Below, in pieces: positions 2,454-7,140 of a stretch of 33,527 nt of DNA. Position numbers and translations under genes: made by a program. Below the pieces are notes generated by a model. It searched no databases. It was not told the origin of the DNA and saw only the letters and a program-made list of their open reading frames with translations. The DNA lies in NCBI GenBank assembly GCA_034926675.1, contig JAYFQW010000031.1:1-33527 (forward strand), read 5' to 3'. This DNA is from Clostridia bacterium. GTDB taxonomy: Bacteria > Bacillota > DTU025. How positions within the stretch are numbered: the stretch's first letter is position 1; every line of letters begins with the position of its first letter.

Positions 2454-3051
2454 CTCCTATCCATCTTGGCTGCTGCCCGGAGAGCCATTCGGATCATGAG
2501 GTCGATTGCATGGCATATCTCATCCGAGCGCCTGATCTCTTCTCCCGTTAGGCAAATGGAGATTCCATGTAGAAGGCATCATGAGTCCGGATTACCCCGA
2601 GGTGATACGACGCGCCGAGTTCATCAGCCGCGTCGACCAGGGCGCGAACCAGGTGGAAATCGGCTACAGCTGGGTAGCTCATATCGATGTACTCGGGAGT
2701 AGTGCCGTCGCCGCGGACCGCGGCAGTGGCGATGACCAGGTCTCCCGGGTGAACATTCGGTTGCATGGCCCCGCAGGTCCCAACCCGTATCATGTTGCGC
2801 GCTCCGACCTTGATGGCCTCTTCCACCACGATTGAGGCGGCCGGCGCCCCAACTCCGGTGGATATGACCGACACGGGCACGCCCTGATATCCACCTGTGT
2901 AGGTGTCGAATTCCCTACTGGACGCCACATGCCTGGGGTTGTCCATATAGCTTGAGATCAGCTGGGCCCTCTTGATGTCGCCCGGCAGAAGAACTGAACG
3001 TCCCAGGTCGCCGGGCTTGCACTTGATGTGGTGTTGAAGCTCCATGTTCAC
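2420..3051 (-). pseudogene. Degenerate nucleoside phosphorylase (DeoD/Udp type) with internal deletion
   Basis: The first 167 codons encode a clear purine-nucleoside/uridine phosphorylase: LLPGDIKRA near the start (phosphate and fold motif), a STGVGAPA glycine motif, and IRVGTCGAM. The frame stops with TAA at 2548, right after HDAFYMESPF. The next frame (2551 to 2420) encodes LTGEEIRRSDE followed by IDLMIRMALRAA, which matches the normal C-terminus of these enzymes. About 45 residues between, including the G-V-E-M-E ribose-binding motif and the Ser-Asp catalytic segment, are absent. The gene is therefore broken by an internal deletion with a frameshift. Its start overlaps the stop of the GntR regulator by four bases (ATGA), so it was the first enzyme gene of that operon. 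Confidence 0.75.
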
Positions 3052-3797
3052 GGCGCCTGCCTTTTCTCAACTATCAGTTTGATCTTTGGAGACTGTTGCG
3101 CTGCGTACCGTCGGGAATAGACAGATGCGCGGCCTGTGGAGTCGAGGCCTACCTGCTCTACCAGGAGAGACGCCGAGTCGGCGGGGATTGCCAGGTATCG
3201 GGCGTCGGATTCCGACATCCTAGCCGAGCTAATGCTCACATCCCACCTGACGATCCTCACTCCGGCCTCGGTGAGCAGATCATAGGTGGAGCTGATCCCG
3301 TTGGACTGCATGCGTTCGAGCGCCATGGGCACGACCTTGTGAGGGATGAAGTCCACTGAGTACACGGAAGGAACGCCTTCGATTTCCGTGACAGACTGGA
3401 CTATCAGGACGCGATCACCGCGCTCCAGCCCCAGTTTGGCGCGGGCTACGGAGCCCGCTTCTTGATCATAGGCAGACACGAGCCGGTAAGTGGAAGGACT
3501 GCCTTCGGCCGCGAACAGGTCGGCAACGTCGCCTGCGCACACAAGACCGATGGCGGCAGGGCGTTTCCCTGGCCCGATCACGGTACGGCCAATGCCCCGC
3601 TGGTTGAGGATGACGCCGTCCTGTTCGAGCAGTATGAGCGCCTCGCGGAGCACATTGCGGCTCACCTTGAGCAATCGCGACAGTTCCGGCTCCGATGGCA
3701 GGCGCGAACCCACAGGCAGCTTCCCCTGGGATATTAGCTCGAGGAGCTGCTCATAGACCAGCACACGCAGGGGTTTGAAGTCCTCACGCACATGCAT
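3048..3797 (-). CDS. GntR-family transcriptional regulator with UTRA ligand domain
   Basis: About 249 residues from the chosen ATG at 3797, which has GGAGG ten bases upstream; a TTG at 3830 would add 11 residues with weaker support. Residues about 5-70 form a GntR winged helix-turn-helix, with the typical GSRLPSEPELSRLLKVSRN segment and ALILLEQDGVI. The remaining 170 residues fit the UTRA ligand-binding fold of HutC-type regulators (for example VDFIPHKV and a C-terminal VYSRRYA strand). It heads the operon containing the broken phosphorylase and amidohydrolase, so its effector was probably a nucleoside, a base or a derivative; that is inference. A sigma-A-like promoter and an inverted repeat just upstream suggest autoregulation. 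Confidence 0.88.
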   Translation of the reverse strand: MHVREDFKPLRVLVYEQLLELISQGKLPVGSRLPSEPELSRLLKVSRNVLREALILLEQDGVILNQRGIGRTVIGPGKRPAAIGLVCAGDVADLFAAEGSPSTYRLVSAYDQEAGSVARAKLGLERGDRVLIVQSVTEIEGVPSVYSVDFIPHKVVPMALERMQSNGISSTYDLLTEAGVRIVRWDVSISSARMSESDARYLAIPADSASLLVEQVGLDSTGRASVYSRRYAAQQSPKIKLIVEKRQAP

Positions 3798-3848
3798 TGG
3801 CCGATAGCCTCCACGAATCACGCGATGCAACTGTTGCGAAGATGAAGA

Positions 3849-3907: not shown

Positions 3908-4067
3908 GGGAAGGGGACGGGCGCGCGCGGCAGTCGGGACACGGGAGACGGGGAAGCTATCCAGGTCTGCTGCACTCAGCCAATACTCTGCTCCAATGGC
4001 AACAGGACAACTAGCCTCCGCCTCGTCGATAGGTGGAGGCCATTTGACGCTTACGCCGGTACGATGT

Positions 4068-4319
4068 CAGTACGGAATTCGTACTGGGTCGTCGCTTAAC
4101 CAGTACGGAATCCGTACGACACTAGACCTCATTCGAGGCAAATCGGGTCCGGCGGACCGAAAACGAACCGCAAAATGGGAATTATCGCCCGGAATACGGC
4201 CTGCGGCGCTCTTTTCGCGGGCAATAACGCGGTTTTCGGAGCCCGTCCGTCGGACTTGGCTTCTGCGCAGTACGGAATCCGTACTGGTGTCCCGTGTTGC
4301 CTGTACGGAATCCGTACTG
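4068..4319. repeat. Four 19-bp palindromes in two equally spaced pairs
   Basis: Copies lie at 4068-4086, 4101-4119, 4268-4286 and 4301-4319. The best copy is CAGTACGGAATCCGTACTG, a near-perfect palindrome with 9-bp arms and one central base. Within each pair the start-to-start distance is 33 bp (14-bp spacer), and the pairs are exactly 200 bp apart. Between them, two near-identical 11-bp palindromes (GTCCGGCGGAC at 4147 and GTCCGTCGGAC at 4245) and the inverted octamers CCGAAAAC (4157) and GTTTTCGG (4232) make the whole block roughly symmetric about position 4195. The regular spacing suggests cooperative binding of a dimeric protein. The spacer sequences differ, so it is not a simple duplication. 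Confidence 0.85.
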
Positions 4320-4565
4320 AGTCTCGGAAAAACTGGGCGCGCTTCGTATGTAGCTCTGCACTTGGGTTCTAGCTTGCGTCTCCGCTCGTCTGGGCTTACC
4401 GGCACCCGGATGATACAGGGCTTCCCCGGTTAAGTCCGTTTGCCTGGACACGAACCCGTCCGTGTTGCCAGCGACGCCCTTTCCTACTGGTTGTCTTCCC
4501 GCTGGTTAGGTGATAGGACCTCTTTCAGTCCATCGGCTCAACAAACATGCCGGACGAACGCAATA

Positions 4566-4716: not shown

Positions 4717-4803
4717 TGGTGCCGAAGGCGGGACTCGAACCCGCATGGCCTTTCGACCGGTTGATTTTGAGTCAACTGCGTCTGCCGATTCCGCCACTTC
4801 GGC
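4717..4803 (-). tRNA. tRNA-Leu (anticodon CAA)
   Basis: Reading the minus strand from 4803, a 7-bp acceptor stem (GCCGAAG with CTTCGGC), discriminator A and an encoded CCA are visible. The anticodon stem GTTGA/TCAAC encloses loop CTCAAAA, giving anticodon CAA for leucine codon UUG. The D-arm, a long variable arm and the T-arm GCGGGTTCGAGTCCCGC fit a class II leucine tRNA. Confidence 0.95.
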
Positions 4804-4811
4804 GCTCCATT

Positions 4812-4840
4812 ATTCTACCATGGAGGCTGCTGCCGCGCAA
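4812..4840 (-). promoter_or_regulatory. Predicted promoter of tRNA-Leu
   Basis: On the minus strand TTGCGC (4840-4835), a 17-bp spacer and TAGAAT (4817-4812) lie immediately upstream of the tRNA, placing the start of transcription a few bases from the mature 5' end. Confidence 0.5.
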
Positions 4841-4937
4841 CCACACCATGCGGCTTGCGGCCCGGTGCACTTGCGGCTCGGTGCGCTCAACGATTGCCGC
4901 GCTCAGAAGTGCCGTTAACCCCTTGAACGCGCTCCGG

Positions 4938-4977
4938 ATGCTGTCTGCCTAATGCTGTCTGCCTAATGCTGACTGCC
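4938..4977. repeat. Short tandem repeat, 14-bp unit
   Basis: Two perfect copies of ATGCTGTCTGCCTA (4938-4951 and 4952-4965) and a third partial copy with one change (4966-4977) stand in the gap between tRNA-Leu and the spoVT terminator. Nothing else is recognisable in 4841-5046 except GC-rich inverted bits near 4977-5000. Confidence 0.85.
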
Positions 4978-5046
4978 CCGAGAGATTCCCCGGGGAGTGC
5001 GCTCACCCCGCAAGAGGAACCCCGCGTTCTCCGCCGGGCCATGCCG

Positions 5047-5086
5047 AAAACAACACAGCCCCAGGCGTCCTGCTTAGCCTGAGGCT
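5047..5086 (-). terminator. Rho-independent terminator of spoVT
   Basis: On the minus strand AGCCTCAGGC (5086-5077) pairs with GCCTGGGGCT (5066-5057) through ten pairs including one wobble, followed by GTGTTGTTTT. It lies about 25 bp after the spoVT stop. Confidence 0.65.
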
Positions 5087-5112
5087 CTGAGACTCGTTTT
5101 CATCTGAATAGC

Positions 5113-5646
5113 CTAGTGGAGAAGCTGTTTTCCGAGGAATGCGGCTGCTGTCTCAACAAGCTTGACCTCAGTCGCCCCCATCTGCCTCGGCTCTTTCGAC
5201 ATGAGCACTACCACTCCAGCGGGGTCGCTGCCCGCAACGATGGGCGCCATCACCTGCGCTGCGAATTGGGCGCCATCTACTGCCGGTTTCTCGTTCGGCG
5301 CCGTAGCCACGAATGTCTTGTTGGATTTCATCACTTCCTGGGCGTACTCAGAAACCCTCTTCTCCATATACGCTTTCCTTGGAGCACCGCTTACCGCGAC
5401 GACCTCTGCATCATCTGCAATGAGCGCGATGCATCCAGTAGAATCGTTAAGGGAATCAGTGTACTCCTGGGCGAAGAAGCTTAGGTCGGTCATGGGCGAG
5501 TACTTCTTGAGGATCACTTCGCCGTCTCGATCAGTGAATATCTCAAGAGGGTCGCCTTCCCGGATCCTCAGCGTCCTCCTGATTTCCTTCGGTATGACCA
5601 CCCTGCCGAGGTCATCTATACGTCTGACTATCCCGGTCGCTTTCAA
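5113..5646 (-). CDS. spoVT: Stage V sporulation protein T (SpoVT), AbrB-type regulator
   Basis: A 177-residue DNA-binding regulator which, in Bacillus and Clostridia, modulates forespore gene expression late in sporulation. The N-terminal swapped-hairpin AbrB domain is nearly canonical: KATGIVRRIDDLGRVVIPKE, then RRTLRIREGDPLEIFTD and ILKKYSP. Residues about 55-177 correspond to the GAF-like C-terminal domain. I chose TTG at 5646 because it gives the usual MKATG start and lies seven bases after GGAGG; a GTG one codon earlier (5649) is too close to that site. A hairpin terminator follows the stop, so it is probably monocistronic. Together with dpaA it is the main evidence for a spore former. 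Confidence 0.95.
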   Translation of the reverse strand: MKATGIVRRIDDLGRVVIPKEIRRTLRIREGDPLEIFTDRDGEVILKKYSPMTDLSFFAQEYTDSLNDSTGCIALIADDAEVVAVSGAPRKAYMEKRVSEYAQEVMKSNKTFVATAPNEKPAVDGAQFAAQVMAPIVAGSDPAGVVVLMSKEPRQMGATEVKLVETAAAFLGKQLLH

Positions 5647-5764
5647 CACTAGCCCTCCCCACCTGAATTCCGCCGTCCCCGGTCATATTCTGCCGTAATG
5701 CGAACGGCCATATGCAGGGCTCAGACTGCTCCGAGCTCCCAGCATGCCCGCTAGTCCCCGGGGT

Positions 5765-5799
5765 GGCCCGTCGCGCCAGGTCTCCCATGGCGCGGGGCC
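5765..5799 (-). terminator. Hairpin after pfkA, weak terminator candidate
   Basis: GGCCC plus CGCGCCA pair with TGGCGCG plus GGGCC around a 9-nt loop, with a 2-nt bulge (12 pairs). No T-run follows on the minus strand, so it may be a processing or attenuation hairpin instead. It sits just after the pfkA stop. Confidence 0.35.
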
Positions 5800-5802
5800 G
5801 TG

Positions 5803-6801
5803 CTACAGATTCGACAGCATGTTCGCAAGTTCATAGTAGTCCATGTTAATTGGCCGCTTCATGTCCAGCGCCTCATCGAAACCAAATACCCGCACTTCGT
5901 TGCCGAACAGGCCCAACGCCGCGCTTGTTCCTCCGCCAAGCAGCACATCAACGGCTTTTGCTCCGAGGGTAGTGGCAAGGATCCGGTCGCGCATCGATGG
6001 AGCCCCGCCCCTTTGTATGTGCCCGAGCACTATGATCCTAGTGTCGAACCCTGTGATCTCCACTATCTGCTGGCCTATCCGATTTGCGCATCCCTCGCTG
6101 ACGCCTCTTCCGGGCGCGGGGTTCCCATCTGCGCCCTCAGCGACTACGACTATGCTGTGGCTCTTGCCCTCTCTGGCGCCTTCCATAATCCTGCTGCACA
6201 CTTGCTGGATATCGAACTCCACTTCAGGCACGAGGATGCTCTCTGCGCCTCCTGCGAGCCCAGTCGCCAGTGCAATGTGGCCCGAGTTCCTCCCCATCAC
6301 CTCGACTACATAGGTACGCTCATGCGACGTAGCCGTGTCCCGTATCTTGTTGATGGCGTCGAGCACCGTGTTGCATGCTGTATCGAATCCGATGGCGTAC
6401 TCAGTCGATCCGATGTCATTATCGATGGTGGCTGGCACTCCAATGGTGGCCACCCCCATCTTGGACAGGAGATCCAAGCCCTTGTAGGTGCCATCTCCGC
6501 CTATCCCGACCACGCCATCTATCTCGCAGGTTCTGATCTGAAGGAGCGCCTTTGCGCGCCCTTCCTCGGTCTTGAACTCCTCAGACCTGGCAGACTTCAG
6601 AATAGTGCCACCTCTCTGGAGGATATCTCCCACTGAACGCGACTTCATCTCCATGAAGTCCCCCACGACCAGCCCGTGGAACCCCCGCCTGACCCCCACT
6701 ACCTCCAGGCCGTGGTACAACGCCTTTCTCACCACCGCCCGTACACAGGCGTTCATGCCGGGGGCGTCTCCTCCGCTTGTAAGCACTGCTATTCGTCTCA
6801 T
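5803..6801 (-). CDS. pfkA: ATP-dependent 6-phosphofructokinase
   Basis: A 332-residue enzyme, close to the usual 320-330, which phosphorylates fructose 6-phosphate to fructose 1,6-bisphosphate in glycolysis. Visible motifs are the N-terminal nucleotide loop TSGGDAPGMN, GIGGDGTYKG near residue 100 (Gly after GGD, as in ATP rather than pyrophosphate users), the catalytic PATIDND, VMGRNSGHIA, and the substrate-binding LGHIQRGGAPS. The ATG is preceded by GGAGG at seven bases. It lies downstream of dnaE and a small DUF2007-like gene on the same strand; dnaE-pfkA linkage is common in Clostridia, where pyruvate kinase often follows, but here spoVT follows instead. Confidence 0.96.
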   Translation of the reverse strand: MRRIAVLTSGGDAPGMNACVRAVVRKALYHGLEVVGVRRGFHGLVVGDFMEMKSRSVGDILQRGGTILKSARSEEFKTEEGRAKALLQIRTCEIDGVVGIGGDGTYKGLDLLSKMGVATIGVPATIDNDIGSTEYAIGFDTACNTVLDAINKIRDTATSHERTYVVEVMGRNSGHIALATGLAGGAESILVPEVEFDIQQVCSRIMEGAREGKSHSIVVVAEGADGNPAPGRGVSEGCANRIGQQIVEITGFDTRIIVLGHIQRGGAPSMRDRILATTLGAKAVDVLLGGGTSAALGLFGNEVRVFGFDEALDMKRPINMDYYELANMLSNL

Positions 6802-6846
6802 GCCGATTCCTCCAGTGGCACCGTTCGCGCCTACGGTGTGACAAAC

Positions 6847-7044
6847 CTAGATCACCGATGAGTCGAGGATATCGTGCGCCTCCTCGGCCTCAGTCTCAGG
6901 AACGAGAACCTCCACATTGGCGGAATCGCCGAGCTGAGGCACTCCTATGGGTCTGAGCGTTACCAGTAGGCCTTCCACTTCAAGCATGTTCTTCACCAGC
7001 TCGGCCTCTGACCTGTTAGGTGCGATGTAGACTACTGTCCACAC
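6847..7044 (-). CDS. Small DUF2007-like putative signal-transducing protein
   Basis: A 65-residue protein starting GTG with GGAGGG eight bases upstream. It begins VVYIAPNRSEAELVKNMLE, then contains VPQLGDSANVEVLVPETEA. This matches the short DUF2007/PII-like alpha-beta fold: a strand, a helix that places residues after 'EAE', and a C-terminal V-P-x-x-x-x-x-E-A-x-x-I-L segment. The biochemical role of the family is not established. It lies between dnaE and pfkA on the same strand with small gaps, and similar tiny genes occur at this spot in other Clostridia. No membrane segment is seen. Confidence 0.75.
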   Translation of the reverse strand: MWTVVYIAPNRSEAELVKNMLEVEGLLVTLRPIGVPQLGDSANVEVLVPETEAEEAHDILDSSVI

Positions 7045-7140
7045 GTCAGTTGCCCTCCTCGAAATCTCATACCCGCTTAGGTAGTATGTCCGTTCTTCTA
7101 TGCCAATGCCGAATCTCCTTCAGTGCCTGACCCATTGTCC

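Follow-up and report, generated by a model that had tools for sequence, protein, structure and literature searches.

Four palindromes at fixed spacing form a dispersed intergenic array, a putative protein docking site, in the genome of a Clostridia bacterium

Introduction

The parS/ParB, matS/MatP, and RacA ram systems use palindromic sites that occur about 10–25 times on one chromosome. Multi-site operators that loop DNA are known from lambda OR/OL, from LacI/GalR, and from the paired sites of NrdR or NtrC. Dispersed miniature elements include MITEs and TIMEs, the latter being Tn3-derived inverted-repeat miniature elements. REPs are short palindromes that usually number more than 100 copies per genome and are accompanied by a tyrosine transposase (PMC2817692).

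Here we analyzed an array of four palindromes found in a 33,527-nucleotide stretch of DNA from a Clostridia bacterium, referred to as the window in the following. The array is unusual in that, at 18 places in one genome, the four sites and their spacing (within 1–2 bp) have stayed fixed, although drift has reduced the overall sequence to about half identity.

Results

Four palindromes form one repeated unit

The block at positions 4068–4319 of the window measures 252 bp and comprises four GTACG-N5-CGTAC palindromes with spacings of 33, 167, and 33 bp, i.e., exactly 200 bp from pair to pair (Table 1). Palindromes and spacing are exactly as the first-pass annotation had claimed, and shuffled sequence gave no match to the site pattern at up to three mismatches. 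The same annotation had pointed to two inner 11-bp palindromes and to a set of inverted octamers. These are present in the window but are not conserved in other copies of the array, and we hence conclude that the inner palindromes, like the octamers, lie outside the common design. Its statement that the spacers are unrelated is true between the two pairs; from copy to copy across the genome, in contrast, the spacers are homologous. The middle segment of the window copy contains an A/T-rich patch around 4171–4185.

Table 1. Features of the window array, its neighbors, and the second palindrome family (positions refer to the window unless contigs are given).
Feature	Location	Strand	Remarks
GntR/UTRA-family regulator, neighbor	3048..3830	-	start 238 bp from site 1
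Minimum repeat-unit extent, window copy	4059..4343		87.7% identity with locus L036 (the contig C18 copy)
Palindromic site 1, outer left	4068..4086		CAGTACGGAATTCGTACTG; perfect GTACGG outward, GTACGA inward
Left-pair spacer, 14 bp	4087..4100		sequence diverged at conserved length (sites 33 bp apart, or 32 bp in L040/L041)
Palindromic site 2, inner left	4101..4119		CAGTACGGAATCCGTACGA
Middle segment, 148 bp	4120..4267		length 147–149 bp in all copies, sequence strongly diverged
11-bp palindrome GTCCGGCGGAC	4147..4157		conserved in the closest copies only
11-bp palindrome GTCCGTCGGAC	4245..4255		palindromy not kept in other copies
Palindromic site 3, inner right	4268..4286		CAGTACGGAATCCGTACTG
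Right-pair spacer, 14 bp	4287..4300		
Palindromic site 4, outer right	4301..4319		CTGTACGGAATCCGTACTG
tRNA-Leu (CAA), neighbor	4717..4803	-	3′ end faces the array; synteny in relatives stops there
CTCA-N4-TGAG family, genome G000	contigs C1, C3, C9, C10, C16, C17, C29, C42, C49, C54, C69, C70, C76, C80, C83, C87, C89		loci L277-L291, L295-L314

We searched the window's own genome, a 3.38-Mb draft of 90 contigs that is 97% complete. The site was matched about 70 times per strand, versus 1–4 times in the reversed control. Arrays were found at 19 intergenic loci on 17 contigs; 18 of them are complete, and the 19th, on contig C45, is cut by the contig start. Site 1 is kept in 18/18 complete copies, all of which have a spacing of 33 bp (32 bp in L040 and L041), then 167 or 168 bp, then again 33 bp. 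The paired-site pattern gave 35 matches, which among the matches listed all fell within the 19 loci, and none in the reversed control. Partial or gene-carrying versions of the array were not found in this genome. Neither were isolated pairs, from which we conclude that the four-site array is the unit. The first-pass annotation had considered that the 19-mer might be scattered without paired spacing; we found the opposite, i.e., every copy in the genome keeps the spacing and there are no extra pairs.

Homology between copies continues past the outer sites, over distances from nearly zero to more than 300 bp that vary by pair and side. The arrays are therefore related by descent, and they form subfamilies. 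The repeat unit spans at least about 285 bp in the window copy, and one subfamily has about 390 bp of common sequence. Copies L040 (L040:198-763) and L041 have a 300-bp flank in common (13/300 differences). Part of this flank is the 3′ end of a gene that, by eye, is nitroreductase-like; on the other side of the array, the common sequence of the two copies ends close to site 4. The common flank indicates that the two arose by one segmental duplication and then diverged in place.

Conserved sites and spacing in otherwise divergent DNA

In an alignment of the 18 arrays, the mean pairwise difference was 6.5% in the sites, 38.5% in the pair spacers (where the 14 bp were counted together with the two adjoining bases at each end), and 47.4% in the middle segment. 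On a tree built from non-site columns, with a total of 5.2 substitutions per site, 0.43 changes fell on each site column versus 3.61 on each middle column, and the GTACG/CGTAC arms had a single change in all 40 columns. Six disjoint young pairs of copies had 7/360 site changes versus 131/908 changes in the middle (p = 5e-13, where related copies are taken as partly independent). Since their duplication, L040 and L041 have accumulated 12/151 differences in the middle and 0/60 in the sites; selection therefore seems to act on the copies in place. Sites were likewise unchanged (0/60) in L029/L031 and in L030/L042. Moreover, array length is 251–253 bp in all complete copies despite several mutually cancelling indels. 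Purifying selection on the sites and the spacing of a four-site DNA element is thus well supported as a reading of the sequence. With words and distances nearly fixed and the DNA between them free to change, the arrays look like purpose-built landing sites for a protein.

Gene conversion, or a repair of palindromes templated by hairpins, might keep neutral repeats similar, and both palindromes and multiple nearby copies are correctable by template switching. However, conversion would homogenize spacers and middle segments too, yet these have diverged by 39% and 47%, respectively. Templated repair would perfect the palindromes, but 42/72 inward halves are imperfect and the outward half is kept. 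As the overall length of 251–253 bp would also be left unaccounted for, we consider neutral maintenance very improbable.

Half-site polarity suggests a dyad protein complex

The outward half-site is exactly GTACGG in 66/72 sites and the inward half in 30/72 (p = 1e-10, a value that takes related copies as partly independent and, because the copies are related, is only indicative). This asymmetry indicates a mirror-symmetric protein complex on the DNA, and it is the signature predicted where DNA-bound dimers join in a dyad complex. Neither the middle segment nor the spacers were clearly more symmetric than by chance, hence only the sites are mirror-symmetric. The dyad proposed in the first-pass annotation can accordingly be retained for the sites, while the inner palindromes and octamers that had been counted toward it are subfamily-specific coincidences.

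Every palindrome could also fold as a hairpin, as would be expected if the array were a structured RNA or an RNA-based element. Against this, no compensatory changes were found across the arrays (covariation term -0.2 kcal/mol), there was no Rfam match for the array, and variable positions would yield A-C mismatches on either strand. A conserved promoter or terminator was not found either. An RNA element was therefore rejected for want of covariation and of an Rfam match, and its probability is minimal in our view.

The array family was found in a single genome

No array was found in the 60 nearest relatives, nor in the other 397 genomes of the phylum sample, which overlaps these 60. The exact site did not occur once in 11 other genomes of the order, and plasmid and phage collections had no match to the array. 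Also, about 1.1 Mb from two same-family genomes contained no other palindrome arrays resembling these. Conservation in relatives, which the first-pass annotation had named as a check, was thus not observed: all relatives searched are without both the sites and the spacing. Because the evidence for constraint within the genome is strong, we read this absence as lineage specificity.

We also scanned a collection of named genomes, which may omit records of the source organism itself and hence is no proof of absence elsewhere, with the paired pattern. Among the matches listed were unrelated GTACG...CGTAC hairpins, mostly from methanotrophs, and Streptomyces repeats; a scan of viral sequences gave two contigs, whose hairpins resemble those of the methanotrophs. 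Methanotroph genomes of Methylococcaceae and relatives (L056-L174, L175, and L176, among the matches listed) have many inverted hairpin pairs of the form GTAGGGTACG...CGTACC / GGTACG...CGTACCCTAC with a spacing of about 33 bp, which look like REP/BIME elements. The text returned by a literature search for the site sequence concerned only nucleosome work, which we take as a coincidence.

Genome G001, from a sister genus, has the orthologous pair of convergent YkuD and NifU genes with about 144 bp between them, versus about 500 bp, and with no array; this is one junction, and its intergenic bases are too diverged to place insertion ends. Four same-family genomes are syntenic with the window through phosphofructokinase and SpoVT, and synteny ends at tRNA-Leu. 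The DnaE-phosphofructokinase-SpoVT-tRNA-Leu order (window 4717-7055) is conserved in same-family genomes and stops beside the array at the 3′ end of tRNA-Leu.

The array-free junction, the confinement to one lineage, the inverted arrangement of the two pairs, and the common descent of dispersed copies with subfamilies would all fit a non-autonomous, MITE-like element, in which the paired palindromes bind a transposase or recombinase in trans and only intact copies move. In contrast, there are no discrete ends common to all copies, and the extent of homology differs by pair. Target-site duplications were absent from every common boundary: all boundary pairs, examined up to 120 bp outward for 4–9 bp, showed no excess over permuted flanks. 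The genome holds no partial or gene-carrying array version, and no transposase of the IS200/RAYT type, the family searched, was found (Y1 (HUH) domain PF01797, 0 matches in the genome). Site pairs that would match the ends of a parent transposase do not occur outside the 19 arrays, in a 97% draft that may miss collapsed insertion sequences. Moreover, the sites are intact between L040 and L041, i.e., between copies from one segmental duplication. The suggestion in the first-pass annotation of a mobile element without its own gene hence keeps the array-free junction in its favor and has the lack of ends, of target duplications, and of an IS200/RAYT-type transposase against it; we regard such an element as a real possibility, at about one chance in three.

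Arrays lie beside unrelated genes

By ORF calls, about seven arrays lie between convergent genes, eight between co-directional genes, and one between divergent genes. Pfam assignments of the flanking genes have no common theme and include oxidoreductases, transporters, peptidases, ribonucleotide reductase, RarA, a microcompartment protein, and others. Such unrelated and often convergent neighbors speak against a regulon operator. The operator complex suggested in the first-pass annotation, taken as a local control site for its adjacent gene, is not supported: the 19 copies stand beside unrelated genes, and about seven are flanked by convergent ones.

Nevertheless, a repressor or activator bound to the four sites could loop the DNA onto adjacent promoters of a regulon. 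Sites about three turns apart, in clusters about 19 turns apart, would suit such an operator, and this geometry is typical of looping regulators, e.g., LacI/GalR or lambda CI. Also, some copies are located upstream of gene starts (238 bp from gntR in the window; the response regulator at L039; L033). However, the neighbors have no common function, a position upstream of functionally related genes is not consistent, and at least six convergent copies have no adjacent gene start. Scans for sigma-54 and sigma-70-like promoters revealed no conserved promoter, and isolated or two-site operators are absent from the genome. Regulon operators are therefore improbable.

A sigma-54 promoter was found near none of 17/18 arrays, and downstream of L040 there were three weak, repeat-derived matches; a sigma-54 enhancer was rejected on this basis. 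The window array contains no sigma-70-like site above chance. An association with tRNA genes was rejected as well, since the window copy alone is near a tRNA. Gene-free gaps had no degenerate coding remnants at L029 (six frames) or L034 (four frames). A 6S RNA gene is located beside rarA (L038:5618-5799), about 1.4 kb from one array copy, and a SECIS element (L031:7487-7524) near a DUF5940/fatty-acid-synthesis-like gene suggests a selenoprotein.

A second palindrome family in the same genome

A search for palindrome arrays in samples of the same genome yielded CTCA-N4-TGAG triplets with a spacing of 31/32 bp at about 20 loci. Tandem arrangement is frequent (period 228 or about 282 bp), and each unit of the 282-bp type has a GC-rich hairpin, GGCGGCGCACCCGCGCCGCC. 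Paired matches numbered 49, with 0 in the control. Gaps between triplets are 165/166 bp (one type), 208/209 bp, or 217–221 bp; the shortest is near the 167/168 bp of the arrays and the others are off by roughly four and five helical turns, which is suggestive only. In the order, this family is essentially absent, with one weak match in G008.

Discussion

We tentatively favor, at slightly less than an even chance, that the array is a chromosomal docking site for one putative dimeric DNA-binding protein, with chromosome organization as the likeliest role. Four dimers would bind the four palindromes (15 bp each, or 19 bp with flanks), and dimers on each 33-bp pair, i.e., about three helical turns apart, would do so cooperatively. 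The two pairs, 200 bp or about 19 turns apart, may then meet through looping or wrapping of the middle segment, which the fixed spacing gives sound reason to expect. In such a dyad complex, the subunits would touch outward and inward half-sites differently. Duplication would have carried the unit into gaps between genes, in this lineage alone, and its role would be to anchor or loop the chromosome at places away from promoters, not to control its neighbors locally. Cooperative dimer binding and looping at a specific nucleoprotein site, as the first-pass annotation had suggested from sequence, are well supported by the rigid spacing, the conservation of the sites, and the polarity of the half-sites.

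We put chromosome organization first, given that the arrays show no tie to promoters and stand beside unrelated genes; this role, named as the most likely, is at the same time the least certain step in the docking reading. A mobile-element role ranks only just below it, given the lineage specificity of the family and at least one junction that is without the array in a relative. Against a docking site, the arrays occur in just one genome from the phylum sample, which is unusual for a core chromosome function, and the common descent and subfamilies of the copies fit a mobile element too. Counting in favor of docking is the independent second family of like logic in the same genome. A bolder proposal, which we consider rather unlikely, is a new chromosome-architecture system, in which four dimers of a lineage-specific protein would assemble on a rigid 252-bp dyad site about every 180 kb and form stereotyped loops or wraps; the CTCA-N4-TGAG triplets would then be a second, orthogonal set of sites.

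If the arrays are docking sites, they provide a natural series of 18 different middle segments on the same geometry for studying looping or wrapping by dimers. They would then also point to a putative protein, either architectural or belonging to a mobile element, in a lineage with SpoVT-like genes. Moreover, one genome alone suffices here to tell the drift of an element from selected protein contacts.

Comparison with known systems

The arrays resemble REP/BIME elements with RAYT transposases in being dispersed intergenic palindromes in alternating orientation, and some REP/BIME elements are bound by host proteins (PMC2817692). In contrast, the array family has 19 copies, a fixed four-site geometry, and no Y1 transposase, and its half-site variation breaks hairpin pairing. 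The GTAG/GGAG tetranucleotide that marks REP/BIME elements 5′ of the hairpin was not found at the palindromes, whose flanking bases vary. A REP/RAYT system was rejected from the absence of PF01797 in the genome. With MITEs and TIMEs, the arrays have in common a size of about 250–400 bp, inverted terminal-like arms, and lineage-specific dispersal. They differ in having no defined ends or target duplications, in homology that passes beyond the inverted arms, and in sites that are conserved after duplication.

The Lrp/AsnC site format, with 5-bp half-sites around an A/T triplet, fits the array. However, the Lrp/AsnC domain PF01037 had 0 matches in this genome and in 11 relatives, with positive controls, and an Lrp/AsnC (FFRP) octamer was rejected because the genome has no such protein. 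Canonical parS (TGTTTCACGTGAAACA-type) is present as three sites on contig C9, which are unlike the array sites in sequence. As the genome's parS is located elsewhere, we conclude that the array is not a canonical partition site, which excludes parS from the partition role considered in the first-pass annotation.

The parS, matS, and ram families are similar to the arrays as repeated palindromic sites on one chromosome at a similar count; theirs are single sites, whereas here four sites are arrayed at fixed spacing. In looping operators, too, dimers bind palindromic sites that lie within a few turns of each other, and separations are on the scale of a loop. The arrays, in contrast, are attached to no regulon or conserved promoter, and they repeat one four-site design at 19 unrelated places.
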